NCBI RefSeq assembly: GCF_003575965.1
Contig: NZ_QWJJ01000002.1
Span: forward strand, 248,001-312,000
Reading direction: 5' to 3'
DNA: 64,000 nucleotides
Source of the DNA: Pseudooceanicola sediminis
Lineage (GTDB): Bacteria; Pseudomonadota; Alphaproteobacteria; Rhodobacterales; Rhodobacteraceae
Both the position numbers and the translations under genes were made by a program. The notes below the pieces were generated by a model that was not told the DNA's origin, searched no databases, and saw only the letters and a list, made by a program, of their open reading frames with translations. The number at the start of each line of letters is the position of its first letter. The first letter of the stretch is position 1. Below are positions 1,173-13,354 of the stretch, piece after piece.

Positions 1173-1199
1173 AAAAAACCCCGGCAACGCCGCCGGGGG
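1173..1199 (-). terminator. Rho-independent terminator of the minus-strand iron/flavin operon
   Basis: On the minus strand a GC-rich stem (CCCCGG pairing with CCGGGG, 1179-1198) is followed by a run of six T (1173-1178). It lies about 30 bp after the stop of the beta-propeller gene and plausibly ends the seven-gene operon. Confidence 0.7.
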
Positions 1200-1229
1200 G
1201 CAGGGTGTGCGCAGGCAGGGTGCGCTGCC

Positions 1230-2693
1230 CTAGTCCTGGCGGGGCCGGATCACGCTGATCAGATCGCCACGCGCGTCCTGCGCGCCGAAGGATTTGTTGA
1301 CGGCATAGACCGTGCCATCCCGCGTGGCGGTGACATCGTTGGGATAGCTGCCAAGATCGAGGTTCGCGGCAATCGTGCCATCACGACCGACCGCCGTGAT
1401 GGTGCCCGCCCCCCGGTTCACGACCCAGGCAAGCCCGTTGGCCGCATCGAACCCGACGCTGAGCGCACCTGCGCCCACCGGCACATCGTGGCGCACATCG
1501 CCCGTATCGGGATCGACCAGCAGCAGGTCGTCGGACCCCTGGCCGGCCACGAACACCAGACCGCTGTCGGGATCATAGGCCACGCCGGTCGCATGGATCG
1601 CACCGGGCAGGGCGAATACCTGGGTAACCTCGGCCGTCTGCGTGTCGATCACCGCCAGTTCGCTGGTGGCGCGCGACGTGACGAATAGCCGCCCCCCCGC
1701 CGCATCCAGCGCCATGTTCATGACATAGAAGTTTTCGCCGCGCAGAGAGCTGTCGATCTCGATGATCTGGCGGGGCTCAAGCGTTTCGGCGTCGAAGACG
1801 TGCACCTTTGCGGTGGCAGAGGAGGTCACGAAGACACGGTCGCTCGCCGCATCCACCAGCACCTCCCGGCTGTGATAGACCTGCCCCTGCGGGAACTGCC
1901 GGATCAGCCGCAGATCGTCGGCGGCATAGACCGCGACACTGTTGCTGGCGGTGTTGGTGACCCAGACGTGGCCGCGCGCCTCGTCCAGACCGATGCCGAA
2001 GGCGGCGGCGGGCGCGTCCGCGAACCGGCCACCTTCGGTCGTGCGCAGCGCTTCTGGGTAGGGCGCGGGAGTGGTGCAGGCAATCACCCCGAGCGTCCGG
2101 GGATCCAGTTTCAGGATCTCGGCCGCCATGGGCCGGAACGACGAGGCCGTGACGAACAGCGCCCCGGCAGAGGGACTGTAGGCAAGCTGGTACAGACCCG
2201 GAGCGGGCGATTTCACCGAGGTGATGTCATACTCCTGCGCGCCCGACAGCGGCACGCGGGGCGAGATCTTGAGATCGAGCAGATCCGTGGTCGAGGGCGC
2301 GCTGCCCAGCACGACAATCGGGTGCATCCCCACGGCGGCGGTCTCGGGCAGGGTGAATTCAAAGGCCAGGGCGCCCTCGGCATCTGCGGTCAGCGGCGCG
2401 TCGCCGGTCAGGCTGTCCGGGCCGCGCTGAAGGGTGATGGCCTGCCCCGGCACCAGACCCTGACCGCTGAGCACGACCGTGCTGCCGGGATAGATCGGTT
2501 GATCCGGGGTGGTCGGGGCCACGCGAAAGCTGCCCGTCTGGGTGACCGGCGGCGGAAAGGCGGATTGCGCCATGGCGGGCAGGGTCGTGGCTAGCAGGGT
2601 CGCGGCGGGCAGGGTCGCGGCGGGCAGCGCGCCCAGCATCAGGACAAGCGCGGCGGCGCGGCACCCGGGGGCGGGTTTCTGTTTCAGGGTCAT
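1230..2693 (-). CDS. secreted YncE-like beta-propeller protein
   Basis: About 487 aa, last gene of the minus-strand operon. The start at 2693 (MTLKQK) is preferred over an ATG 51 bp upstream because AGGATCCCACC precedes it and a signal peptide follows (hydrophobic stretch ending PAMAQ). After an Ig-like N-terminal part (about 50-160) come repeated blade sequences such as VFVTSSATAKVHVFDAETLE and LFVTSRATSELAVIDTQT, typical of the YncE/YVTN seven-bladed beta-propellers. E. coli YncE is an iron-repressed periplasmic propeller of unknown job, which suits this operon. The signal-peptide coding region is built of 15-bp tandem repeats. Ligand or partner is not evident. Confidence 0.8.
   Translation of the reverse strand: MTLKQKPAPGCRAAALVLMLGALPAATLPAATLLATTLPAMAQSAFPPPVTQTGSFRVAPTTPDQPIYPGSTVVLSGQGLVPGQAITLQRGPDSLTGDAPLTADAEGALAFEFTLPETAAVGMHPIVVLGSAPSTTDLLDLKISPRVPLSGAQEYDITSVKSPAPGLYQLAYSPSAGALFVTASSFRPMAAEILKLDPRTLGVIACTTPAPYPEALRTTEGGRFADAPAAAFGIGLDEARGHVWVTNTASNSVAVYAADDLRLIRQFPQGQVYHSREVLVDAASDRVFVTSSATAKVHVFDAETLEPRQIIEIDSSLRGENFYVMNMALDAAGGRLFVTSRATSELAVIDTQTAEVTQVFALPGAIHATGVAYDPDSGLVFVAGQGSDDLLLVDPDTGDVRHDVPVGAGALSVGFDAANGLAWVVNRGAGTITAVGRDGTIAANLDLGSYPNDVTATRDGTVYAVNKSFGAQDARGDLISVIRPRQD
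2574..2633 (-). repeat. 15-bp tandem repeat inside a signal peptide
   Basis: Four consecutive 15-bp units of the form GGCGGGCAGGGTCGC (2574-2588, 2589-2603, 2604-2618, 2619-2633; the last is degenerate) encode a repeated Leu-Pro-Ala-Ala-Thr-like pentapeptide in the hydrophobic region of the beta-propeller signal peptide. The unit is a multiple of three, so copy-number changes would stay in frame. Confidence 0.85.
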
Positions 2694-2770
2694 GGTGGGA
2701 TCCTTTCGGTTCGGCCTGCTGGATGCAGGAGTGAGAAGGGCCAATCAGCACCGGCAGGGCCGACGGGCGG

Positions 2771-4084
2771 TCAGTAGAAATCGGTCAGGAAACGGCCCGA
2801 CTGCTGCATCTGGTGCAGGTCCGAGGCGTTGAGGCTGGTGCCGAGGGCCGCAAGGATCGCCCGTCCGGGGTCCCGGCTGCCGCAGACGAAAAGGGTGGGC
2901 TGGCGGCCCGGAGCGCCGGGCGCGACAAAGGCGCTGAGGGCCTCGGCATGGTCGCGGATCCAGTCCGGCAGGCGTTGTGGCCGTGGTCCGCGCGACAGCA
3001 CGCAATCGATCCGCAGGCGGTCGGGCCCGGTGCGGGCCAGATCGCGCAGCGGGGCAAAGGCCGCATGACGTTCGCCGTGGACCAGCCACAGAGGCGCGGT
3101 GCCCGACCCCGCCAGACGCGCGCGCAGCGGCCCCAGCACGGCGGCAAGGCCGGTGCCCGTCGCGATCATCAGCAACGGCTGGTCGTCACGGTCCGCGATC
3201 GCAAGAGCGTCCATATGCGGACTGTCGCGCAGGCTCAGCTGTACCCGCCCGCCCTGCGCCAGGCCTGCGGTCAGCCAGGCCGAGCCGAGGCCCGGCGGGC
3301 CATCGGGGCCATGCCGACGCCGCAGGATCAGCTCGACTTCGCCGCTCTGGGGGAGGGAGGCAACCGAATAGCTGCGCTGCTGCGGGGTGCCGTCCGGGGC
3401 AAGCAGCGCCACATCGGCAATCGCGCCGGGCGTCCATTCCACCGGCACATCGGGGCGCAGCCGCAGATGATACGCGGGATCCCCAGCCTGACGCGGTGTC
3501 AGCAACCGACGCTCGGTCAATCGCCACTGGCCCGGTGTGTCGGCGCCCACCCTTGCGTGCCATTGCGCCAGATCCGCAGGCGCGCCGCGGTCAACCTCGA
3601 CCCGCGGGAACAGCGGATGCGCGCCGCAGGCCACAAGCGCGGCGTCGACCTGCCGTCCGAAGCCGCAAAACGCTGGATAGCGCCGGTCGCCAAGGGCCAG
3701 CAGGCCGTACCGCAGGCCGGTCAGATCGCACTGGCGCAACGCGCCCAGGCGGCGGGCAAAGGCGCGGGCGTTGTCGGGTGCCTCGCCATCCCCGGCCGAG
3801 GCCAGCAGGAACCAGGCCGTGCTGGCGCGCCGCAGGATTTGCGGCGTGACGCTGTCCAACGGGTGTGGCGTCGTGCCCAGCCGTCGCGCCTGATCCCAGG
3901 CCAACCTCTCGGCCAGACCCGATTGCGATGCAAACAGCACCAGGGTGTCGCCCGATGCGGTGTCGCCCCCGCCGGGGGCGGTCGCAGCGGCGCGGCGCTG
4001 CCACAGCAGAACCGCCAGCCAGCCCAGCCCAAGAACCACGGCAAGGCTGATCCGAAACGCCGAAAGGGTCAGGGCCGGGATCAC
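2771..4084 (-). CDS. membrane-anchored flavodoxin / FAD-NADPH reductase
   Basis: 437 aa from a GTG (4084) that overlaps the apbE stop as GTGA. One membrane segment (about 8-28) is followed by QRR, so by the positive-inside rule the catalytic part faces the cytoplasm. Residues ~47-180 are a flavodoxin domain with FMN phosphate loop FASQSGLAE. Residues ~185-437 are a ferredoxin-NADP reductase fold with FAD motif QRSYS (236-240), NADPH-binding MIATGTGLA (307-315), CGSRDPGRAI (401-410) and a C-terminal Tyr437 that could stack on FAD. This is a compact CysJ/P450-reductase arrangement. By context it would pass NADPH electrons to the PepSY membrane protein encoded by the same operon. Confidence 0.85.
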   Translation of the reverse strand: MIPALTLSAFRISLAVVLGLGWLAVLLWQRRAAATAPGGGDTASGDTLVLFASQSGLAERLAWDQARRLGTTPHPLDSVTPQILRRASTAWFLLASAGDGEAPDNARAFARRLGALRQCDLTGLRYGLLALGDRRYPAFCGFGRQVDAALVACGAHPLFPRVEVDRGAPADLAQWHARVGADTPGQWRLTERRLLTPRQAGDPAYHLRLRPDVPVEWTPGAIADVALLAPDGTPQQRSYSVASLPQSGEVELILRRRHGPDGPPGLGSAWLTAGLAQGGRVQLSLRDSPHMDALAIADRDDQPLLMIATGTGLAAVLGPLRARLAGSGTAPLWLVHGERHAAFAPLRDLARTGPDRLRIDCVLSRGPRPQRLPDWIRDHAEALSAFVAPGAPGRQPTLFVCGSRDPGRAILAALGTSLNASDLHQMQQSGRFLTDFY

Positions 4085-5064
4085 GCCGCGTCCTCCCATT
4101 CTTGCAGGCAGGTACCCACGCGGGCGCCGTCGGGCAGGGTCAGCAGCGCGGGCAGGTCCTGCGCGCGGGCCAGCGCCAGCCCCTGCTGCGGCGGCAGAAC
4201 CATCAGCGCGGTCGCCCAGGCATCGGCCAGCGCCGCGCGGCGGTGAAAGACATGGGCCGACAGAACCGCCCCTCCGCCCGGCTGGCCCGTGACTGGGTCG
4301 AGCGTATGGCTCCAGCCTGCGCCGGGCCCCGCGCGCCGCCGCCAGTGGCCAGACCCGGCCAGCGCCATGCCGTGCAGCGCCGCCAGATGACGGGTCGCAT
4401 CGTCGCGACAGGTCGGTGGGGCTTCGATGTCGATCCACCAGGGTTGACCGTCCGGCGACAGGCCACGCGCCGCGACCTCGCCCCCGATCTCGACCATGTG
4501 CACCCGCAGCCCGGCGGCCACCAGGTGCTGCGCGGCACGCTCGACCGCCCAGCCCTTTGCGATGCCGCCGAAGTCGAGCCACAGGCCGCCGGGTTGAAAG
4601 GCATGATCCCCCTCGATCCTGAGCCGCGCGCGCCCCGAGGCGGCGCGCGCATCGCGCAGCTCGGTCGCGTCCGGGGCTGCGGCAACCGGCCCGGAGGGGC
4701 CAAACCCCCAAAGGTCGGCAAGCCGCCCCAGCGTCGGATCCAGCGCGCCCCCTGTCAGGTCGCAGATGCGCAGGCTGTCGCGCAACAGCGCCATCAGCGG
4801 CCCCGGCAGACGATGCCAGCCCGGCGGTGCCGTATTGAACCGGGACAGCGCGCTGTCAGCCGCCCAGGGGCTGAACAGCGCGACGGTTTCGGCGCAGGCC
4901 GCGGCCACCAGCGGCGCGGGGTCGGGCAGGCCGGGGGCCGTCCAGGCGATCAGATGCCAGCCGGTGCCCATGCTGGTGCCGCGCGCCGTGATCCGCCGCC
5001 AGCCGGGCCCGGCCATGTCGCCCGGCGCGCCGGGTTCGATCAGGATATGGCGCGGCCCGGTCAT
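4081..5064 (-). CDS. apbE: FAD:protein FMN transferase (ApbE family)
   Basis: 327 aa; ATG at 5064 overlaps the pepSY stop (ATGA). ApbE proteins attach FMN covalently to Thr or Ser of target proteins using FAD. Family landmarks are present: SMGTGWHL (31-38), TGGALDPTLGRLADLWGFG (104-122), LDFGGIAKGWAVERA (163-177), VEIGGEV (191-197), SHTLDPVTGQP (252-262) and ALADAWATAL (279-288) with the metal-binding Asp. Unlike many ApbE proteins it has no visible signal peptide or lipobox, which is odd because the likely targets are exported. It is translationally coupled on both sides to pepSY and the reductase gene. Confidence 0.92.
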   Translation of the reverse strand: MTGPRHILIEPGAPGDMAGPGWRRITARGTSMGTGWHLIAWTAPGLPDPAPLVAAACAETVALFSPWAADSALSRFNTAPPGWHRLPGPLMALLRDSLRICDLTGGALDPTLGRLADLWGFGPSGPVAAAPDATELRDARAASGRARLRIEGDHAFQPGGLWLDFGGIAKGWAVERAAQHLVAAGLRVHMVEIGGEVAARGLSPDGQPWWIDIEAPPTCRDDATRHLAALHGMALAGSGHWRRRAGPGAGWSHTLDPVTGQPGGGAVLSAHVFHRRAALADAWATALMVLPPQQGLALARAQDLPALLTLPDGARVGTCLQEWEDAA

Positions 5065-5705
5065 CCGCCGTGCACGAACAGCAGGAACAGCACGGCCGGC
5101 AGGACAAGACCGCCCAGGGTCACCGGCCAGGTGGCGGGACGGGCGCGCGCGTGCATCGCCAGAATGCCCAGCCCGCTGAGCGCAAACAGCACGGTCCCGA
5201 GCGCCAGCGCGTCGATCACGAAGGGCCAGGCCGCACCGCTGTTGCGTCCCTTGTGCAGATCGGCGGCCAGCGCCAGCCAACTGCGCCGGGTGATGCTGAT
5301 GTCCGCCGTGGCGGTGGCGCGGTCGATGATCACGCGGCCTTCGCCGCCCGGTCTGGGCAGGTCGATCCAGACCTCGCGCGTGTCGAAATCAGCGACGCTG
5401 CCGCGCAGAGGCACCCCGACACGCGGCGCCAGCCAGTTAGCCAGCGGGCGCGGCAGCGGCGCGGTGCCCGATGTCGGTGCGGCGCCGAGCACCTCTTGCA
5501 GCGTCACGGGCAGCGTCAGGGCGCGCACTTCGGTATCCACCCGTGCCGGGATCAGGCCGGGGTGGTTCAGGAAAACGCCCGTAGCAGCGAAAAAGATCAG
5601 GATCGACAGGCTGGCCGCGCCGGTGATCCGATGCCACAGGGTCAACTGCCGCAGCCACCAGGCGCGGGCCGTCGACCCCGGCAGAGAGGATGCGTTTCCT
5701 GCCAT
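5061..5705 (-). CDS. PepSY-associated transmembrane protein
   Basis: 214 aa. Three membrane segments (about 30-47, 161-184, 195-211) flank one long presumably periplasmic loop (48-160). Histidines at or near membrane edges (H25 in LWHRITG, H48, H151 in DLHKG, H185) could ligand heme or lie on an electron path; that role is inferred. The LWHRITG start and LHKGRNSG signature match PepSY_TM proteins, which sit beside ApbE and DUF2271 genes in other proteobacteria. The start lies one base after the DUF2271 stop, so coupling is tight. Likely role: carry electrons from the cytoplasmic flavoreductase across the inner membrane. Confidence 0.85.
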   Translation of the reverse strand: MAGNASSLPGSTARAWWLRQLTLWHRITGAASLSILIFFAATGVFLNHPGLIPARVDTEVRALTLPVTLQEVLGAAPTSGTAPLPRPLANWLAPRVGVPLRGSVADFDTREVWIDLPRPGGEGRVIIDRATATADISITRRSWLALAADLHKGRNSGAAWPFVIDALALGTVLFALSGLGILAMHARARPATWPVTLGGLVLPAVLFLLFVHGG

Positions 5706-5706
5706 C

Positions 5707-6294
5707 TCAGGGCGCGATGGTCAGCGTCACGGCGCCCAGCTCTTGCGTGCCGGTACCGGTGGCAGTGGTGGTGATCCCGCTGGCGGTCGCCGCGCCGGTT
5801 TCGCGGGCGGCGGACCCGCCCCAGTCGAAGGGCAGCCGCACCAGGTCGCGGTCGCCGTCTTCGCGGGCGACCTCGACCGCCAGCACATACGCGCCGGGCG
5901 CCAGTGCGGACAGCGGCGCGGCGTCATCCGTCAGCCGCACCTGGTAGCTGCCCGGACCGCGTGTCGGGCCGCTGATGCCATCTGCGGGCAGGGTCATCTG
6001 TTCGCCCGTGGCGCGCCACCAGCTGCGCAGATGCCTGAGAAACCCCGTGCCCAGGTCATCGCGCAACCGGGTGTCGTACCAGACCGCCAGCGTCGCCTGC
6101 GGCACCCCGTCAGGGGTTTCGACCCATGCCGCCAGGTAGGGGCGGTAATAGGGGGCCGCCGCCACGCGGGGCAGGGTCAGGTCGATCGTGACCTCTCCGG
6201 CACCGGCGGCCGGGGCGACCAGGCTGGCCGCGACCACAGGCAGCACACCGCGGCAGAGGGGCCGTGGCAAGGGCCGTGGCAGGGACCGTGGCAT
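5707..6294 (-). CDS. DUF2271 periplasmic protein
   Basis: 195 aa from ATG 6294, preceded by GAGGG at a suitable distance; longer upstream starts would run back through the EF-hand gene. A basic n-region with Leu-Pro-Arg-Pro repeats and a hydrophobic stretch ending near APAAGAG form a signal peptide. The mature part carries DUF2271 features: PYLAAWVETPDG, TLAVWYDTRL, LRSWWRATG and a terminal QELGAVTLTIAP. The biochemical role is unknown; the family co-occurs with ApbE and PepSY genes. A Thr/Gly/Ala-rich linker (TGAATASG) precedes the last strand. Confidence 0.85.
   Translation of the reverse strand: MPRSLPRPLPRPLCRGVLPVVAASLVAPAAGAGEVTIDLTLPRVAAAPYYRPYLAAWVETPDGVPQATLAVWYDTRLRDDLGTGFLRHLRSWWRATGEQMTLPADGISGPTRGPGSYQVRLTDDAAPLSALAPGAYVLAVEVAREDGDRDLVRLPFDWGGSAARETGAATASGITTTATGTGTQELGAVTLTIAP
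6259..6294 (-). repeat. 12-bp tandem repeat at a start codon and signal-peptide n-region
   Basis: Three 12-bp units (6259-6270, 6271-6282, 6283-6294) read GGGCCGTGGCAA/G on the plus strand, the last containing the DUF2271 start codon. They encode MPRS-LPRP-LPRP, so copy number would lengthen the positively charged n-region in frame. Confidence 0.8.
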
Positions 6295-6298
6295 CGGA

Positions 6299-6883
6299 TC
6301 AGCCCTCGTTGGTGCCGGTGGCACCATTGCTGTCACCTGTCGCGCCCGCCCCGGTATCACCGTCATCCTCGGGGTCCGGGATCGGATCGGCATCGTTGAC
6401 GATTGCATTCTCGTCCGTGTCATGGCGGGCGAACGTCGACGCGGCGACAAGCTGTTGCTCGGACCAGGACAGCGACCCGTCGCGGCTGCGGTCGACAATG
6501 GCGAACCGCACGTGCGCCTGTTCGATGGACCGGTCGTAGCGCTCGTCCTTTTCCAGCCCCTGATCGGCATATTGCTGATCCAGTCGGCCCTGGAACTCGG
6601 CCACGTATTCCGCCTCGTTCAATGCGCCGTCGCCGTCGGCATCCGCACCGTCAAAGCGGGATTTGCGGATGGCGTCGTATTCGTCCAGCGTGACGGCACC
6701 GTCGCCGTCGGTGTCATAGGCTGCGATGAACGCCGCCTTTCGGTGGCCGCCAGCCACACCGGGGGCGGGGCGGTCGTTTTCGCCGGCGGCGGTTGCAGGC
6801 TGATCCGCCGCCTGCTGGGCCATCACGGGCGCAGCGGCAGGTGTCAGCAGGGCAAGGGCAAGCGGGATCAGGATGGGGCGCAT
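6299..6883 (-). CDS. secreted EF-hand protein with Gly/Ala/Asp-rich tail
   Basis: 194 aa from ATG 6883 with a clear signal peptide (cleavage near PVMAQ). Three canonical calcium loops are visible: DTDGDGAVTLDE (57-68), DADGDGALNEAE (81-92) and DRSRDGSLSWSE (131-142); a fourth at 155-166 is degenerate. The acidic C-terminal tail (about 167-194) contains DTGAGAT (176-182) and DSNGAT (184-189), which resemble the Asp-x-x-Ser/Thr-Gly-Ala-Thr sequence that ApbE enzymes flavinylate. It may therefore be a calcium-binding flavin carrier, but this is inference; a plain acidic linker is the alternative. It ends four bases before the DUF2271 start. Confidence 0.85.
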   Translation of the reverse strand: MRPILIPLALALLTPAAAPVMAQQAADQPATAAGENDRPAPGVAGGHRKAAFIAAYDTDGDGAVTLDEYDAIRKSRFDGADADGDGALNEAEYVAEFQGRLDQQYADQGLEKDERYDRSIEQAHVRFAIVDRSRDGSLSWSEQQLVAASTFARHDTDENAIVNDADPIPDPEDDGDTGAGATGDSNGATGTNEG

Positions 6884-6924
6884 GTCTGTTCTCTTCTCTC
6901 GGCAGGTGGGTGGTGGGGGAACGG

Positions 6925-6950
6925 CGGGCGGGGTATGTCGGCCCCGCCCG
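6925..6950 (-). other. intercistronic hairpin without T-run
   Basis: A perfect 9-bp stem (CGGGCGGGG with CCCCGCCCG, 8-nt loop) lies in the 94-bp gap between the receptor gene and the EF-hand gene. No T-run follows, so it is more likely an mRNA stabiliser, processing or attenuation element than a full terminator. It could set receptor expression above that of the redox genes. Confidence 0.5.
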
Positions 6951-6977
6951 TCGGGTGATGGATCGGTGCCTGTCGGA

Positions 6978-8927
6978 TCAGAACGTCCGACCCAGCGAAA
7001 CCTTGACGGTGCGCCCCGGTGCGGGCCGCGTGGCAAGGTGCGGCTGATAGTATTCGTCCAGCAGGTTCTCGACGCCCAGCCGCATGTCGACGCCCTTGAG
7101 CATCCCGCTGTCGGCGGTGTAACCGACCGAGACATTGTGCAGGACGACACCCGGGGTCGGGGTCGTGGCGCGGTCCATGTCCAGCGCCCAGACACCTTCC
7201 CATTTCAGGTTCAGACCCGAGTCGAACCGCTTGCCCAGCCCTAGGCGCACCTTGTCGGCGGGCTGTTGCGACCAGAAGTTGCTGGCGGCGTCGGGGGTGC
7301 GGTTGTAGCCGTTGGCGAAACTGGCGTTCAGATCACCGTAATAGCCCGCGTCGGTAGCATAGGAGGCTTCGATCTCGACGCCTTCGACCTCCAGATCGGT
7401 GATGTTGCTATAGCTGGTCACGTCCCAGACGTCGGTGTGATAGGCATTGACCTTGAGCGCCAGGCGGTCCCCCGACGCCAGCAGGTCGCGACGGTCGAAC
7501 GACACCCCCAGCTCCCAGGTTTCGGCCTTTTGCGACTGGGTCATGTAGGCGGCATTCGTCAGGTCATCCAGGATCGGCATCCCCTCGGTATAGGACCAGG
7601 ACCCGAAGACGGCGAAACCGCTGGCCCACTGGTGGCGCAGCGACGCGCCACCCATCAGGGCCGTATTGTGATAGGTGCCATAGCCGTATTCGCTGCCATC
7701 GATATCCTGATCCTCGAACCGCACCGCCGGCGAAAAGGTGAAACCACCGAAGGTGATGTCGTCGACCAGGAACAGCGCATGGCGTTCGTCATCGCCGCCC
7801 GGCGCCGACGACGCATCCAGCCGGTCCTTGAGGATGTATTCCGCCCCCATCCGCAGGCGGTGGTCGGCCTGCCCGGTGACAAACTCCATGGTGTTCTTGG
7901 CCGTCAGCTTGGTCGTGACGTAATCCTGATCGGCGTTGAGCAGCGACATCGTGCTGCCGGTCGAGGATTCCTGGTCGATGGTCTGCTGGGCCCGGCTGAG
8001 GATCACATCGACGTTCACCAGGTCACTGTTCAGCGAATCGTAGCTGTATTTCAGCACGCTGGTCTTGGAATGCACGTCGCGGTCGACATTGCCGAAATTG
8101 GACGATCCGAATTGATCGTAGGGCACATCCTTTTCCGAGCTTTGCGTGTCGGAATAGCTGAGGGTCAGCGAATGCTCTCGGTCCTGACCGAAATGCACGG
8201 TCCCCTTTGCAAGGTAGGACGGCGTTGCGAAATCGGTGTTTTCCACCGTTTCGCCATTTCCATCCTCGTAGGCCCCCTGTTCGCGCCACGTATAGTTGAA
8301 CAGCAGCTCCAGGGCGTCGCTGGCCTGCCAGGCCAGGGTCGAGGACGTGACCAGACCGTCGCCGTTCGAATTGTAACCAAGGTACTGGCGGGCGGCGAAA
8401 CCGTCTTGGCCATTGGTGAAATCCGACGCGTCCTTGGTGTCGAAACGCACCATGCCGCCGATCGCCCCCGAGCCGTATTCGAAGGTGCCGACGGATCCGC
8501 GGATCACCTCGGCCTGCTTGTACAACGCCGGATCGGTATAAAGCTGCGTACCGATGCGATACAGTTCCTCGGCCCCGCTGGTCGCGCCGTCAACGATGAT
8601 CTGCACGGTCTGATCGGTGCCATATGTGCCGGACCAGGCGCCCATGCCGCGGATGTTGATGGCCGACCCGCCGGGCGTGGATCCGTTGACCAGGTTCACA
8701 CCGGGCACGGAATCCAGCAGCTCGGCTGTGGTCGAGGCCTGCCTGTCGTCGATCTCTTCCTGGTCGATGACGGTGACGGGGGTGGCGGTCTGGGTCTGCA
8801 CCTCGCGGTCGGATTCGACAACGATGGGGGCCAGCGTGATCTCTTCGGATTGGGCAAGGGCGGCATGGGGAAGCACAAGCGCCACACTGCCCAAAAGCAG
8901 TCGGCGCAGGGTCGCGGAACGATCCAT
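6978..8927 (-). CDS. TonB-dependent outer-membrane receptor (heme/iron type)
   Basis: 649 aa, first gene of the operon. Signal peptide ends HAALAQ, and a TonB-box-like stretch EEITLAPIVV follows. The plug (about 40-165) has VIDQEEI, LLDSVPGVNL, INIRGMG, VIIDG-like IIVDGATSG and EVIRGSVGTFEYGSGAIGGMVRF. The rest is a beta-barrel ending in the outer-membrane signature Phe (KVSLGRTF). The YRIGTQLYTDPALYKQ plug sequence resembles hemoglobin/heme receptors, but the substrate cannot be fixed from sequence alone; a ferric siderophore is also possible. An iron-box-like palindrome lies at its promoter. Confidence 0.9.
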   Translation of the reverse strand: MDRSATLRRLLLGSVALVLPHAALAQSEEITLAPIVVESDREVQTQTATPVTVIDQEEIDDRQASTTAELLDSVPGVNLVNGSTPGGSAINIRGMGAWSGTYGTDQTVQIIVDGATSGAEELYRIGTQLYTDPALYKQAEVIRGSVGTFEYGSGAIGGMVRFDTKDASDFTNGQDGFAARQYLGYNSNGDGLVTSSTLAWQASDALELLFNYTWREQGAYEDGNGETVENTDFATPSYLAKGTVHFGQDREHSLTLSYSDTQSSEKDVPYDQFGSSNFGNVDRDVHSKTSVLKYSYDSLNSDLVNVDVILSRAQQTIDQESSTGSTMSLLNADQDYVTTKLTAKNTMEFVTGQADHRLRMGAEYILKDRLDASSAPGGDDERHALFLVDDITFGGFTFSPAVRFEDQDIDGSEYGYGTYHNTALMGGASLRHQWASGFAVFGSWSYTEGMPILDDLTNAAYMTQSQKAETWELGVSFDRRDLLASGDRLALKVNAYHTDVWDVTSYSNITDLEVEGVEIEASYATDAGYYGDLNASFANGYNRTPDAASNFWSQQPADKVRLGLGKRFDSGLNLKWEGVWALDMDRATTPTPGVVLHNVSVGYTADSGMLKGVDMRLGVENLLDEYYQPHLATRPAPGRTVKVSLGRTF

Positions 8928-9031
8928 CTCAAGGTCCTGTCGGTTGCGCGGGGGTGCAGCGGTGCACGCCCGTCGTCAAATATGTTTTAGGGGAAGTGCT
9001 GGATGCCTTGAGAGGCTCTGGCCTGCGGGCG

Positions 9032-9059
9032 CTTATAAAGGGGCAGGGCGGGCTGTCAA
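9032..9059 (-). promoter_or_regulatory. sigma70-type promoter of the receptor/flavin operon
   Basis: On the minus strand TTGACA (9054-9059) and TATAAG (9032-9037) are separated by 16 bp, about 105 bp upstream of the receptor start. It is the only strong match seen in this gap. Confidence 0.75.
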
Positions 9060-9080
9060 TCCTGATAGATATACTCAGGA
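9060..9080. promoter_or_regulatory. iron-box-like operator TGA-N9-TCA
   Basis: A palindrome of TCCTGA (9060-9065) and TCAGGA (9075-9080) around a 9-bp AT-rich spacer abuts the -35 element of the operon promoter. TGA-N9-TCA is the pattern described for RirA-type boxes and related iron-responsive sites of alphaproteobacteria. Position next to the -35 fits repression (or activation) by an iron-sensing regulator; which regulator cannot be told. Confidence 0.7.
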
Positions 9081-9386: not shown

Positions 9387-9462
9387 TGGTGCCGCTGAAG
9401 GGACTCGAACCCCCGACCCCATCATTACGAATGACGTGCTCTACCAGCTGAGCTACAGCGGC
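9387..9462 (-). tRNA. tRNA-Thr (anticodon CGU)
   Basis: 76 nt including an encoded CCA. The acceptor stem GCCGCTG/CAGCGGC pairs perfectly with discriminator A. The D-arm is GCTC...GAGC, the anticodon stem CGTCA/TGATG encloses loop TTCGTAA giving anticodon CGT (codon ACG), and the T-loop is TTCGAGT. Confidence 0.97.
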
Positions 9463-9549: not shown

Positions 9550-11112
9550 CTATTTTCGACCGAAACGCGGTGCCTCTGCCGGGGCGATGGCTGCCTCTTC
9601 CTCTGTCAGCACCTCTGCATCGGGAACGGATTCCGTGGCCGACGTTTCGGTTTCCGGTTCGGCGCGACGGGGTGTCTCGGGTGCGGTGTGGTCAGGCGCC
9701 GGATCCGCCGGGGCGGGCACGTTCACCGCATCGTCGATCCGCCCCACGATCAGCGGCAGCATGTGTTGCGACATCGGGGTCTGATATTCGGTTGCAGGCG
9801 GCACCTTCCAGGCCAGCGTATCGAAGGCCTGGCAGTTTTCGCAGACCGGCACCCATTCCGCGTGGACCTGGTTGCAGTTCTCGCAGGTCCATTGCGGGCC
9901 ACGCGGCGCGCTGACGGCGCGGGTCAGCCAGCCCTTGACGATGGCATCGGCGCTGCCTTCGCCGCGTTCGATCGCGGCCATGATGGTCAGGGCGCGGGCG
10001 TCGGGGGCGGTCACGGCCAGATCCCCCAGGGCCCGGCGCGCTTCGGGGAAATCTTCGGCCCCGATGTTCAGCTCGGCCAGCAGCAACCGGGTCTCGCGGT
10101 GCTCGGGCTGAATACGCGTCAGCGTGCGGAATCGCTTCAGGCGGGCTTCTGCGCTCTCGTCCGGTTCAAGGGCTGCAAAGGCGGCGGCAAGATCGGGATG
10201 CGGCAGTGTCTCCCACGCCTTTTTCAGCACGCGGGTGGCGTATTTCACCTTGCCCTGCTCGGCATAGGCGCGGGCGGCGAAACAGGCGGCGGGGATCAGG
10301 TCGGGCGACAGGCGGTTGGCCTCGATCGCGGCCTCGCGTGCCTCGATGCTGCTATCCTCGTCGATGACGGTCTTGGCCTCGCTCAGCGCCAAGACCGCGT
10401 CGCGGCGCTTGTGCACATCGCGGGGCAGGGCGCCGGTGCGCAACTTGGCCTTCAGCGTGGCGCGCGCGCCCTGCCAATCCTGATTGCCGGCCTGAAGGCG
10501 CAGCAGGGTGTCCTGCACCTCGACGTGGCCCGGTTTCAGCGCAAAGGCCTTTTCGGCCAGCTTCATCGCCGTCTCGGTATCGCCCTCTTCCAGCTTTTGC
10601 TTCATCAACCCGCGCACCCCGACAAACCGCGTGCGTTCATCGGTCAGCAGGCGTTTGTACGCCTCTTCGCGCTTGCGCTTGTCGCCCGTCAGCTCCGCCG
10701 CCTGGGCGGTCAGCAGGTTGGTCAGCTCGGGCCGGTCAAGATAGCGGTCGGCCTTGTTCGCCTTGGCGATCGCCAGCCGCCCCTCGCCCGAGGCCAGCGC
10801 CATCATGCCCTCGCTCAGCGCCTGAAGGCCCTTGCGTTCGCGGTTGCGGTCGAAATAGCGCGTCAGCGCGGTCTCGTCACCGTTGATAAAGCGCAGCAGC
10901 GCCACCAGCAGCCCGACCAGCTTGCCCAGCACCCAGATCGCGGCGACCAGCAGCAACAGCGCGATGACCGCCTTGATGGGGGTCAGGTTGTATTCATAGG
11001 CACCAAACGCAATCCGCACCCCCCCCTCAAGGTCCAGCAGATAGCTCGCGCCAAGGGTAAGAGCGGCGACGATGACGACGAAAACGACGATTTTGACAAG
11101 CGACCATAGCAT
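9550..11112 (-). CDS. hemY: HemY-type TPR membrane protein
   Basis: 520 aa. Two N-terminal membrane segments (about 2-24 and 44-67) match the HemY_N domain. Residues ~90-400 are helical TPR-like repeats. A zinc-ribbon motif follows (C410, C413, C424, C427 in WTCENC ... PVCENC), then an acidic, proline-rich low-complexity tail. It is not the oxygen-dependent protoporphyrinogen oxidase also called HemY; the gene earned its name from linkage to hem genes, and its biochemical role is unclear. It lies 12 bp behind mic60 in the hemD-mic60-hemY operon. The Zn ribbon is probably structural. Confidence 0.88.
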   Translation of the reverse strand: MLWSLVKIVVFVVIVAALTLGASYLLDLEGGVRIAFGAYEYNLTPIKAVIALLLLVAAIWVLGKLVGLLVALLRFINGDETALTRYFDRNRERKGLQALSEGMMALASGEGRLAIAKANKADRYLDRPELTNLLTAQAAELTGDKRKREEAYKRLLTDERTRFVGVRGLMKQKLEEGDTETAMKLAEKAFALKPGHVEVQDTLLRLQAGNQDWQGARATLKAKLRTGALPRDVHKRRDAVLALSEAKTVIDEDSSIEAREAAIEANRLSPDLIPAACFAARAYAEQGKVKYATRVLKKAWETLPHPDLAAAFAALEPDESAEARLKRFRTLTRIQPEHRETRLLLAELNIGAEDFPEARRALGDLAVTAPDARALTIMAAIERGEGSADAIVKGWLTRAVSAPRGPQWTCENCNQVHAEWVPVCENCQAFDTLAWKVPPATEYQTPMSQHMLPLIVGRIDDAVNVPAPADPAPDHTAPETPRRAEPETETSATESVPDAEVLTEEEAAIAPAEAPRFGRK

Positions 11113-11124
11113 ACGGGGAAATCC

Positions 11125-12576
11125 TCAGTTCGTCTTGAAATCGGCCGACATCGCCTCTTGGGCGGCGACGGCTTCGGCCCGGCCCGACGCAGGGTCGATC
11201 CAGGGTTGCATTTCGGCCTTGGCGGCGTCGGGCAGCGACGAAAGTTCGTCCAGCGCCGCACGCAGCTGACCATCCCGCAGCTTGCCCTCGGCGCGCGACA
11301 GGATCGCGTCGGGGTCGTCGCCGTCGCGCGGGTTCAGCGATCGCGCGCCCAGCTGGGTCTTGAGGAACGACACGACAGACGAGGTATCGCCGCTGTCACG
11401 TGTCACCGCCAGCGCCTTGCGGGCGTATTCGGGGAAATCGTCGCGCAGACGTGCCATCGTGACAACCCCGGCAGAGGCATGGTCCTGCAGCGGGGCCGGG
11501 ATCTCAAGGCCCATGTCCGCCAGCGCACTCAGCGGTGTTTCGTAGGGATCGCCGGCATCCAGCGCCGACCCGATGCGCACCAGGGCCGCGCGGATCTGCG
11601 TGTCGCGGGCCGTGCTGGCGGCGTCGGCCTTCATCTCTTCGGACTGCGCGATCATGTCCTCGATCTCTGCGCGCTGGTCCTGCATGGCCTGCTGCAACTT
11701 GCTCAGCTCGCCCTCATAGGCCTGGATCGCCTCTTGCGACACGCCGGTTTCTACGGGCCGCTTTTCAATCTCGGTCAGACGCGCGGCCAGGTTCGACAGG
11801 CTGGCGGTATTCTGATCGGTGGCCGAGGACAGCTCGGACAGGCCGGATTTTACCTCCGCGACATCGCCGCTCATCCCCTCCAGCGCCGACAGGTCCGGGC
11901 CTGCGTCGACACGGGCGCGCAGATCCTCGATGGCACTGGCCTGTTCGTCGATCCGCGCCGAAAGCCCATCGTCGCGGCCGCCGCCACTCATGAACGGGGC
12001 ACCTTCGGGATAGAGCGCCAGCGCCAGGCCAAAACCCAGGCCAGCCGCGATGACCCCACCCAGCAGCGCCGGGAAAAACCCGCCGCGCTTGACGATGACG
12101 CGTTCGGCGACAGGCGCGCCATTCTGCGCGGCACCCGAGGCGGTGTTCTTGGCTGCGTCCCGGGCTGGGTCCGGGGCTGTGGTCGGGGCGGGTTTGGTCG
12201 AGGGAATGCTGCTGGCCGAAACGGCCGCGCTCTCGGGTGCGGCATCCTCTGACGGGATGTCACCGTCGGCTTCCGCCCCCAGGGTCGCGGCATCGCCGTC
12301 ATATTCGTCCGCCGCACGCGGATCATGTTCCGGGGGGGCCAGGGCAGCGGCAGGGGTCAGCGACGTTCCGTCGCGCGGATCATGCAAAGGCGCGCGCAAC
12401 ACGACCTTGCCGGTCTGCGCAGGCGCGTCAGCGTCCGCGTCGGGCACCGCGTCGACTTCGGACGCGCCCGTGTGCGGTAGATCATCGCCGGATGCTGCCG
12501 CCTCGGGGGCGCCGGTTCCGGTCCCCGTCGACGCGATCTCGGCCTTGTCTGTCTTGTCGCTGGTCTTCTTGGCCAC
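11125..12576 (-). CDS. bacterial mitofilin / Mic60 homologue
   Basis: 483 aa. A long acidic Ala/Asp/Pro-rich N-terminal region (1-160) precedes one membrane helix (about 167-189). A periplasmic coiled coil (about 195-310) and a C-terminal mitofilin-like domain follow (IRAALVRIGSALDAGDPYETPL, region ~325-480). Mic60 bends membranes at crista junctions in mitochondria; alphaproteobacterial homologues shape intracytoplasmic membranes or envelope contacts and are typically encoded between hemD and hemY, as here. The N-terminal region is low complexity and likely disordered. Confidence 0.88.
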   Translation of the reverse strand: MAKKTSDKTDKAEIASTGTGTGAPEAAASGDDLPHTGASEVDAVPDADADAPAQTGKVVLRAPLHDPRDGTSLTPAAALAPPEHDPRAADEYDGDAATLGAEADGDIPSEDAAPESAAVSASSIPSTKPAPTTAPDPARDAAKNTASGAAQNGAPVAERVIVKRGGFFPALLGGVIAAGLGFGLALALYPEGAPFMSGGGRDDGLSARIDEQASAIEDLRARVDAGPDLSALEGMSGDVAEVKSGLSELSSATDQNTASLSNLAARLTEIEKRPVETGVSQEAIQAYEGELSKLQQAMQDQRAEIEDMIAQSEEMKADAASTARDTQIRAALVRIGSALDAGDPYETPLSALADMGLEIPAPLQDHASAGVVTMARLRDDFPEYARKALAVTRDSGDTSSVVSFLKTQLGARSLNPRDGDDPDAILSRAEGKLRDGQLRAALDELSSLPDAAKAEMQPWIDPASGRAEAVAAQEAMSADFKTN

Positions 12577-12625
12577 GGATCAATCCTCTTCGATTCTCAA
12601 ATATCGCCGCATAACTTCCGGCAGC

Positions 12626-13354
12626 TTAGCCGCCACCCCCACGCGTCTCAAGTTGATGCGCTGCGGCGATAAGTCCAGTTACCACACCTAGCATTGTTTC
12701 GCTGCCGGGGTGCGCAGCAATTTCGACGCGAATGCGTTTCAAACCCGCGATCTGGGGTAAAATCATCGGGCTGATCGCCGCGATGAGCAAGGGCGCATCG
12801 CCCTGCCAGGCGTCTGCGAACAACCGCGCAGAGCGGGGTGAGTATAATGGCGCCACAATCGGTGCCACCCCGGTCATCGCCGCCCTCGCCTGGGGTGTCG
12901 GCGGGCAGGGGCGCTGCTGATATGCCTCGATCGCCTCGGCCCTCAGGCCCGCGGCCTGCAACGCGCCCACCAGGTCGCCCCGATGGTTCCTGCCCCGCAA
13001 ATGCAGCAGGGGAACACCAGGGTTTTCTCTCAATATCAGGGCCTTGAGGTCTTCGGCATTGCCATCGGCAGACATCGCGTCGTGCCCAGCCGCCCGGGCC
13101 AGCTCTGCCGTGGCATCGCCCACGCAATAGGCAACCCGCGCGCCGCCTCGCCAGCTGCGCACGCCGTTGCGCGAGGTAAAGATCAGGGCGCATTCGGGAT
13201 CGCGCGCGGCAAGGTCGGCCAGCACCGCCGCATCGAACACCACCTCCTGCAAGGGCGAGATCACGATGCGCACATCTCCAGCGCGTGCCGTGACAGCCTC
13301 TGCCAGGCGCTGCGCCTCGGCCTCGGGCCGGGTGATCAGGACAACGGGTTGCAT
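12626..13354 (-). CDS. hemD: uroporphyrinogen-III synthase
   Basis: 242 aa. HemD closes hydroxymethylbilane to uroporphyrinogen III in cytosolic tetrapyrrole synthesis. The sequence starts with the family pattern VVLITRPEAEAQRLAE, has LIFTSRNGVRSW, VGDATAELARAAG and the central PLLHLRGRNHRGDL. Sequence conservation in this family is weak, so context matters: it is followed by mic60 and hemY and is divergent from tsaD, the order known from Rhodobacterales. hemC, often the preceding gene, is not present here. Confidence 0.9.
   Translation of the reverse strand: MQPVVLITRPEAEAQRLAEAVTARAGDVRIVISPLQEVVFDAAVLADLAARDPECALIFTSRNGVRSWRGGARVAYCVGDATAELARAAGHDAMSADGNAEDLKALILRENPGVPLLHLRGRNHRGDLVGALQAAGLRAEAIEAYQQRPCPPTPQARAAMTGVAPIVAPLYSPRSARLFADAWQGDAPLLIAAISPMILPQIAGLKRIRVEIAAHPGSETMLGVVTGLIAAAHQLETRGGGG

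Follow-up and report, generated by a model that had tools for sequence, protein, structure and literature searches.

The stretch of Pseudooceanicola sediminis DNA analysed here (64,000 nucleotides of contig NZ_QWJJ01000002.1, positions 248,001 to 312,000, hereafter the window) carries seven minus-strand genes, which we read, at about even confidence, as an iron-starvation operon in which the ATP-binding cassette (ABC) importer and HemS of a heme-type receptor are replaced by a flavin/heme-b periplasmic reductase. In the order of transcription, the genes encode the receptor, an EF-hand protein, a DUF2271 protein, a PepSY protein, ApbE, a flavodoxin-FNR reductase and a YncE-like propeller. The reading is built on gene content, synteny, the kinship of the receptor, the recurrence of a promoter box and the lack of HemS and FeoB_C matches. 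The operon is an ordinary core in an unusual coupling, a new arrangement of mostly known parts.

The receptor points the operon towards heme. A preliminary description made from the sequence had left the substrate as heme or siderophore, a choice that the relatives of the receptor narrow towards heme. Its best relatives in the PDB are heme receptors (ShuA, 1e-23), and the nearest ones outside reductase operons lie mostly in hmuRSTUV loci. It shares 43-53% identity with the receptors of loci L155-L159, of which those of L156-L159 sit beside HemS (Pfam) with HmuT- and FecCD-type genes; a Pfam check confirmed HemS in all four of these loci and also identified periplasmic-binding and FecCD proteins in L156. 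The window-type and L155-L159 receptors possess TE.(L/M)PI.DD or a close variant at the place of GFRAP in FRAP receptors. In the receptor tree, seven reductase-linked receptors and five others (L155-L159, four of them hmu-linked) form a 12-row clade supported at 100/100. Judged by its nearest relatives and this tree, the receptor is best classed as HmuR-type. The label "reductase" needs three changes on the tree, two of them forced by well-supported branches, with L117 far off; there may have been one gain of the reductase link with later losses.

A survey with a four-row receptor profile (E<=1e-40) gave hits in 20 of 397 genomes, comprising 22 rows from 21 genes (that of G075 is split in two rows). 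Five genes lie in reductase loci (the window, L114, L117, L118 and L144) and 16 elsewhere (L155-L170), where no DUF2271 or PepSY match was found. HemS is nearby in none of the five reductase loci, compared to 13 of the 16 others (P 0.0028 ignoring relatedness; L117 and L144 are from one genus). Plasmid records matching the receptor number 46, and the three annotated ones inspected comprise two with hmu loci (Parasedimentitalea pW43B and Sulfitobacter p2) and Paracoccus albus p1, which has neither partner set. In L155, a 146-aa exported-looking protein with no Pfam match is encoded between the receptor and ExbB (7954-8391, minus strand); L161 has an open reading frame (ORF) resembling it (7684-8100).

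The genome of the window (99.59% complete) yielded no match for HemS (PF05171) or FeoB_C (PF07664), which the preliminary description had missed, in searches with positive controls (E. coli and others, 14 controls). The 64 kb window itself contains no HemS, HmuT or FecCD match, HmuTUV elsewhere in the genome not having been searched for. Caulobacter vibrioides, one of the 14 controls, has matches for FeoB_C and DUF2271 and none for HemS; its HutA has been called a characterized heme/hemin transporter (PMC13001220). In Caulobacter, the CC2193 operon (EF hand, DUF4198) lies beside the hemin receptor CC2194, and the CC3059-3063 operon encodes PepSY, DUF2271, DUF4198, ApbE and FNR; both show strong derepression when iron is limiting and when Fur is lost (PMC3751524). 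By annotation these are the same two modules, held in two loci and iron-repressed through Fur there, whereas the window has one operon with an Iron-Rhodo-type box and looks like both modules fused.

All seven claimed ORFs are present between 1230 and 8927, with Pfam domains above cut-off in six of the seven proteins (flavodoxin, ApbE, PepSY_TM_like_2, DUF2271, EF-hand and TonB plug). The coordinates bear out the overlaps and tiny gaps described among the five genes from EF-hand to reductase, each being an overlap of 4 nt (FNR-ApbE and ApbE-PepSY) or a gap of at most 4 nt (PepSY-DUF2271, 1 nt; DUF2271-EF-hand, 4 nt); 94 nt separate the EF-hand gene from the receptor gene, and 77 nt the YncE gene from the FNR gene. 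The promoter noted earlier, TTGACA-N16-TATAAG, is present by eye on the minus strand; a sigma-70 consensus scan reported none, since the scanner demands T at position 6 and passed over it. At the operon end, a terminator-like stem was found as described (1198-1179), and its support is its position rather than its rarity, because the region has four such sites against 3.1 expected. We infer that the seven genes form one transcript. The operon is more than a chance arrangement, since four other loci show all or part of its gene order, and its box stands beside TTGAC in two of them.

Features of the operon, with positions in the window and the evidence for each
Feature	Position	Strand	Evidence
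Terminator-like stem-loop and T run, operon end	1179..1198	-	terminator scan
YncE-like beta-propeller, exported-looking N-terminus, ~110 residues before propeller	1230..2693	-	weak profile matches; YncE 3vgz 7e-11
Flavodoxin-FNR reductase, membrane-anchored, GTG start	2771..4084	-	PF00258 6e-18; CysJ-like; hydrophobic segment 9-27
ApbE (FAD:protein FMN transferase), no visible signal peptide	4081..5064	-	PF02424 9e-62; solved ApbE 6e-46; N-termini
PepSY_TM_like_2, three-helix membrane protein, predicted b-heme wire	5061..5705	-	PF16357 4e-52; conserved H25, H48, H151; model
DUF2271, predicted periplasmic covalent-FMN carrier, site SGPT	5707..6294	-	PF10029 7e-37; motif alignment
Four-EF-hand protein, exported-looking N-terminus, loops from residues 57, 81, 131, 155	6299..6883	-	Pfam; alignment
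TonB-dependent receptor, HmuR (heme) type, no FRAP motif	6978..8927	-	PF07715 5e-21; TIGR01785; ShuA in PDB; hmu-locus relatives
Promoter TTGACA (9059-9054), 16 nt, TATAAG (9037-9032)	9032..9059	-	sequence read by eye
Palindrome TCCTGA-N9-TCAGGA, proposed Iron-Rhodo-type box, abuts promoter -35	9060..9080		relatives' and hemP/iscR sites

The recurrence came from a synteny scan of the seven window proteins against 18 loci. Pseudooceanicola spongiae HQ09 (L055) has all seven genes in the order of the window. L039 shows six of the seven before its contig ends; L040 shows five, its PepSY lying over two frames and no FNR being found; and L041 has six, with no ApbE, a divergent YncE and a PepSY-FNR stretch that is shortened close to the end of the contig. 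The split PepSY frame of L040 (8383-9027) and the PepSY/ApbE/FNR shortening of L041 (9900-11191) may be decay or an assembly fault. Beyond these loci, the window DUF2271 protein as query matched 7 of 394 genomes of the family (E<=1e-3), two strongly, including the window's own; the PepSY family PF16357 occurs in 11 of 390 genomes of the order, nine above cut-off, and was not found in two other genomes of the window's genus. The seven-gene set is thus rare and patchy within the family. This patchiness, together with a GC content of 68.9% in the operon against 61.0% in the rest of the window, suggests horizontal spread of the operon.

The core of PepSY, DUF2271, ApbE and reductase is not new, because a class of such systems has been published: PepSY-like flavinylation clusters number 3220, with DUF2271 in 2833, DUF4198 in 1500 and a TonB receptor in 231, and an iron-reduction role has been proposed for them (Meheust et al., eLife 2021, PMC8238504). 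As in that class, the window clusters a PF16357 PepSY protein with ApbE and DUF2271, and some members likewise have a TonB receptor. By contrast, the window lacks DUF4198, adds to the run an EF-hand protein, an HmuR-type receptor and a propeller, has an SGPT site and has a separate flavodoxin-FNR reductase, which is itself common in our survey. The class is recognized by PF03929 or PF16357 clustered with ApbE or DUF2271 and by a signal peptide on one of them; the window contains this combination, its DUF2271 signal peptide being judged by hydropathy alone (signal peptides throughout were assessed from hydropathy or by eye rather than with SignalP). The electron path drawn in the preliminary description, from NADPH through flavin adenine dinucleotide (FAD), flavin mononucleotide (FMN) and the PepSY hemes to the DUF2271 flavin, agrees with the published class (PMC8238504) and with the conserved PepSY histidines. 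Elsewhere, a PepSY protein is required for ferri-hydroxamate use (PMC13001220). The structure of PepSY modelled from three sequences reached a predicted local distance difference test score (pLDDT) of 71.9 and a predicted template modelling score (pTM) of 0.48, and its VIA list contains unrelated proteins at similar Z. Neither FoxB (by sequence) nor a DUF2271 structure was found in the PDB.

Further analysis of the predicted flavin carrier and its ApbE revealed two features overlooked before. The flavin site of the carrier reads SGPT and does not match the strict [ST]GA[ST] motif; in an alignment of 75 rows, which counts the window twice (itself and L038), the strict motif appears in 36, SGPT in 12 and T/S at the fourth place in all 75. 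Moreover, the window ApbE starts by overlapping the PepSY stop, with a hydropathy peak of 0.5 and no visible signal peptide. Among 60 ApbE N-termini, eight without the MG[TS] landmark were left unscored, and 51 of the 52 scored have no 11-residue stretch reaching hydropathy 2.0 within 75 residues before MG[TS], L085 being the exception. A hydrophobic stretch above 1.6 precedes the DUF2271 domain in 67 of 74 rows; the comparison of the two N-termini is a pointer rather than a test, because the hydropathy limits differ (2.0 vs 1.6). As stand-alone ApbE has no visible signal while DUF2271 looks exported, FMN may be attached to DUF2271 before export in the stand-alone type. Export of flavinylated DUF2271 by twin-arginine translocation was rejected as a general answer, twin arginine being present in 9 of the 67 hydrophobic N-termini. 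Flavinylation of DUF2271 by ApbE has been shown in another species, and for that published test the signal peptides of both the DUF2271 protein and its ApbE were left off in cloning (PMC8238504), so the ApbE of that species has one. No discussion of a cytosolic-looking ApbE serving an exported DUF2271 was found in the available text of the literature searched. By eye, DUF2271-ApbE fusions (L113, L115, L117, L118, L143 and L144) have signal-like N-termini, unlike stand-alone ApbE.

The preliminary description took the EF-hand protein for an oddity of this combination; it is instead a recurrent orthologous partner of this receptor. PF10029 was surveyed in the phylum, where it is present in 81 of 397 genomes, and 77 places above its cut-off, besides the window's own and G242:C29, were scanned with hidden Markov models built from the syntenic proteins. 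Six of the 77 loci have a member of the EF-hand family, always with a receptor of the window family at E<=1e-10; among the other 71, such a receptor is present in two (L108 and L133), and five more have only weaker matches (8e-10 to 4e-5). EF-hand proteins of 12 loci align as a single family, which shares a GH/SH/TH motif, EF-hands in pairs and a conserved stretch resembling QA.VR. All six EF-hand survey loci have DUF4198, compared to none of the five window-type loci, two of which (L039 and L041) are truncated where their contigs end. In L161, an EF-hand ORF lies ~7 kb from the receptor at 6e-9, outside the 1e-10 limit of the survey. The survey also revealed that the window's family has another type of flavinylation locus (L049-L052, L121, L125-L127, L131 and L148), comprising a small DUF2271 protein, ApbE and a reductase ORF of ~2.2-2.8 kb with an FNR match, probably a PepSY fusion, with no receptor or EF-hand match.

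The iron box claimed at the promoter is supported, as the Iron-Rhodo type of an Rrf2 regulator rather than a Fur box. It recurs as TCCTGA-N9-TCGGGA in L055 and TCCCGA-N9-TCAGGA in L039, each followed by TTGAC, and has no second exact copy in the 4.44 Mb genome. A matrix built from the window, L055 and L039 sites scored 14.5 at hemP and 14.6 at iscR in the window genome (either value is attained in 8 of 1198 background windows) and 12.8 at the L041 promoter. Fur was set aside because similar sites are present at hemP and iscR in the window genome and Rhodobacter sphaeroides IscR binds hemP and iscR promoter fragments containing the Iron-Rhodo-box (PMC4618611). By likeness to these sites, not by a published consensus, the box is best read as Rhodobacteraceae Iron-Rhodo-type (IscR or another Rrf2 protein); IscR would be the likeliest regulator, and the operon is probably iron-regulated. 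At seven receptor promoters outside reductase operons (L155-L159, L180 and L183), the best sites score 5.1 to 11.3, with TGA-N9-TC in five, and two of the three other TonB-dependent receptor genes of the genome score 11.4 and 5.1. One mismatch allowed, the genome has 17 sites besides the operon's own (18 vs 2 for a reversed control pattern), 15 inside ORFs and two outside (L015 and L019), although the ORF caller is crude and also called a spurious ORF across the box of the operon itself. By eye none is an evident iron-gene promoter, and a wide regulon of the exact box is disfavoured on that ground. A pattern combining the box with the -35 element matched four sites, among them that of the operon; hemP, where the spacing differs by one, was not matched. 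Upstream of iscR (L149), a TTAGAA-N-TTCTAA-like dyad, which we take to be an Irr/ICE-like motif, adjoins the Iron-Rhodo-type site.

Together, these data suggest, without proving it, that iron is acquired from heme by a reductive route. Under iron starvation, the operon would acquire iron from heme or a heme-like chelate, which the HmuR-type receptor would bring into the periplasm with TonB energy. There, a reductive chain would take the place of the HmuTUV ABC importer and cytosolic HemS: electrons from NADPH would first reach the FAD and FMN of the anchored flavodoxin-FNR, next the b-hemes of PepSY and then the FMN that ApbE attaches covalently to DUF2271, before arriving at the ferric centre. 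The EF-hand protein would be a periplasmic receptor-linked factor, either a Ca-stabilised scaffold or a metal/ligand handler; of all the steps, this one is the least certain. A route outside the operon, not FeoB, would then admit Fe(II) or the reduced ligand, while an iron-sulfur Rrf2 regulator, most likely IscR, would repress at the box until iron loss derepresses. Substrate, electron flow, flavinylation and regulation are all predictions of this scheme. Its most specific form, which we offer tentatively, is that an HmuR-type receptor was uncoupled, perhaps repeatedly, from HmuTUV/HemS and joined to a flavin/heme-b wire and an EF-hand protein, giving an ABC-free, HemS-free periplasmic route that takes iron from heme or reduces heme for release.

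Several observations weigh against this scheme. The receptor reaches 239 bits against the TonB-hemin receptor model TIGR01785 (cut-off 316.85), and has no FRAP/NPNL motif, nor is any histidine invariant across the receptor set; FRAP is also missing from the hmu-locus relatives L156-L159. The fetched reductase loci were centred on DUF2271, leaving one receptor flank short (~4 kb in L114), and L155, L167, L168 and P. albus p1 have neither HemS nor a reductase. The HemS searches covered a single heme-degrading family, and none was aimed at other heme oxygenases or at a distant heme ABC importer. The SGPT site and cytosolic-looking ApbE leave the predicted flavinylation of DUF2271 unproven. By score, the box is absent from L040. 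The window genome has three Rrf2 genes above cut-off, hence several candidate regulators; Rhodobacteraceae are without RirA according to the IscR paper (PMC4618611), and RirA homologs are reported in Paracoccus (PMC9409073), so that IscR is not the sole candidate. Finally, pSA1 of Novosphingobium resinovorum combines the receptor with a TonB-like gene, DUF4198 and an EF-hand gene and has no reductase within 9 kb, so the reductase is not always beside this pair. Taken with the survey co-occurrence, this indicates that the EF-hand protein travels with the receptor, and it weakens the strict tie to DUF2271 that the survey had suggested. A FeoB-like ORF was seen by eye upstream on pSA1.

The pSA1 module and the two separate operons of Caulobacter (PMC3751524) would both fit an explanation in which heme is imported whole by a heme ABC importer elsewhere in the genome, for which no search was made, the reductase serves general iron reduction, and the operon mates share regulation rather than a pathway. 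The genome has no HemS match, however, and receptor and reductase occur together in separate branches (the window group, L041 and L114/L118) of a mostly hmu-tied clade, and we regard this explanation as improbable. Ordinary reductive uptake of a ferri-siderophore or ferric chelate, with a receptor drifted from heme and a PepSY chain that reduces ferric iron as proposed for FoxB/HiuB, is somewhat unlikely: the mostly hmu setting of the nearest outside relatives and the TE.(L/M)PI.DD loop (or close variants) shared with them count against it, and no siderophore gene was seen in the operon. Uptake of a lanthanide or another metal, with a lanmodulin-like EF-hand protein, has a very low probability. 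LanM is the top NCBIfam match of the protein, yet at 37.4 bits it falls below the cut-off of 135; lanmodulin has prolines at position 2 of its EF loops, which all four window loops lack, and on these two grounds a lanmodulin identity was rejected. Lanmodulin-specific prolines are mentioned in PMC10875860. In addition, Ln(III) needs no reductase, and the box is iron-type.

Compared with known systems, the operon shares its receptor type with roseobacter HmuRSTUV, and also iron regulation, shown there (PMC5225302) and predicted in the window; it differs in lacking HemS, HmuT, HmuU and HmuV. As in FoxB/HiuB, a PepSY membrane protein with conserved histidines stands beside a TonB receptor, but the window PepSY is a short PF16357 protein of three helices, alongside which a separate reductase and a predicted flavin carrier are encoded. 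E. coli YncD/YncE pairs a TonB receptor with an exported propeller. The window resembles this pair, whereas its propeller is distant and N-terminally extended and its receptor is heme-type; the propeller matches are weak (PF05096, 25.0 bits, cut-off 22.3), and 80.8 bits against the YncE model NF052280 do not reach the equivalog cut-off of 400. Directly upstream of the operon lies tRNA-Thr(cgt) (9387-9462, minus strand), beyond which HemY-like and hemD-like genes were seen by eye (9550-13354, minus strand); insertion of the operon at the tRNA side is possible.

No description of this gene combination was found in the available text of the literature searched. The operon exposes a compartment puzzle, in which an ApbE without visible signal peptide serves an exported DUF2271 protein. 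As a single operon with a heme-type receptor, its EF-hand partner and a whole predicted chain, it offers a one-locus test of whether periplasmic reduction replaces heme import. If it does, the PepSY/DUF2271 flavin systems would gain a concrete substrate class.

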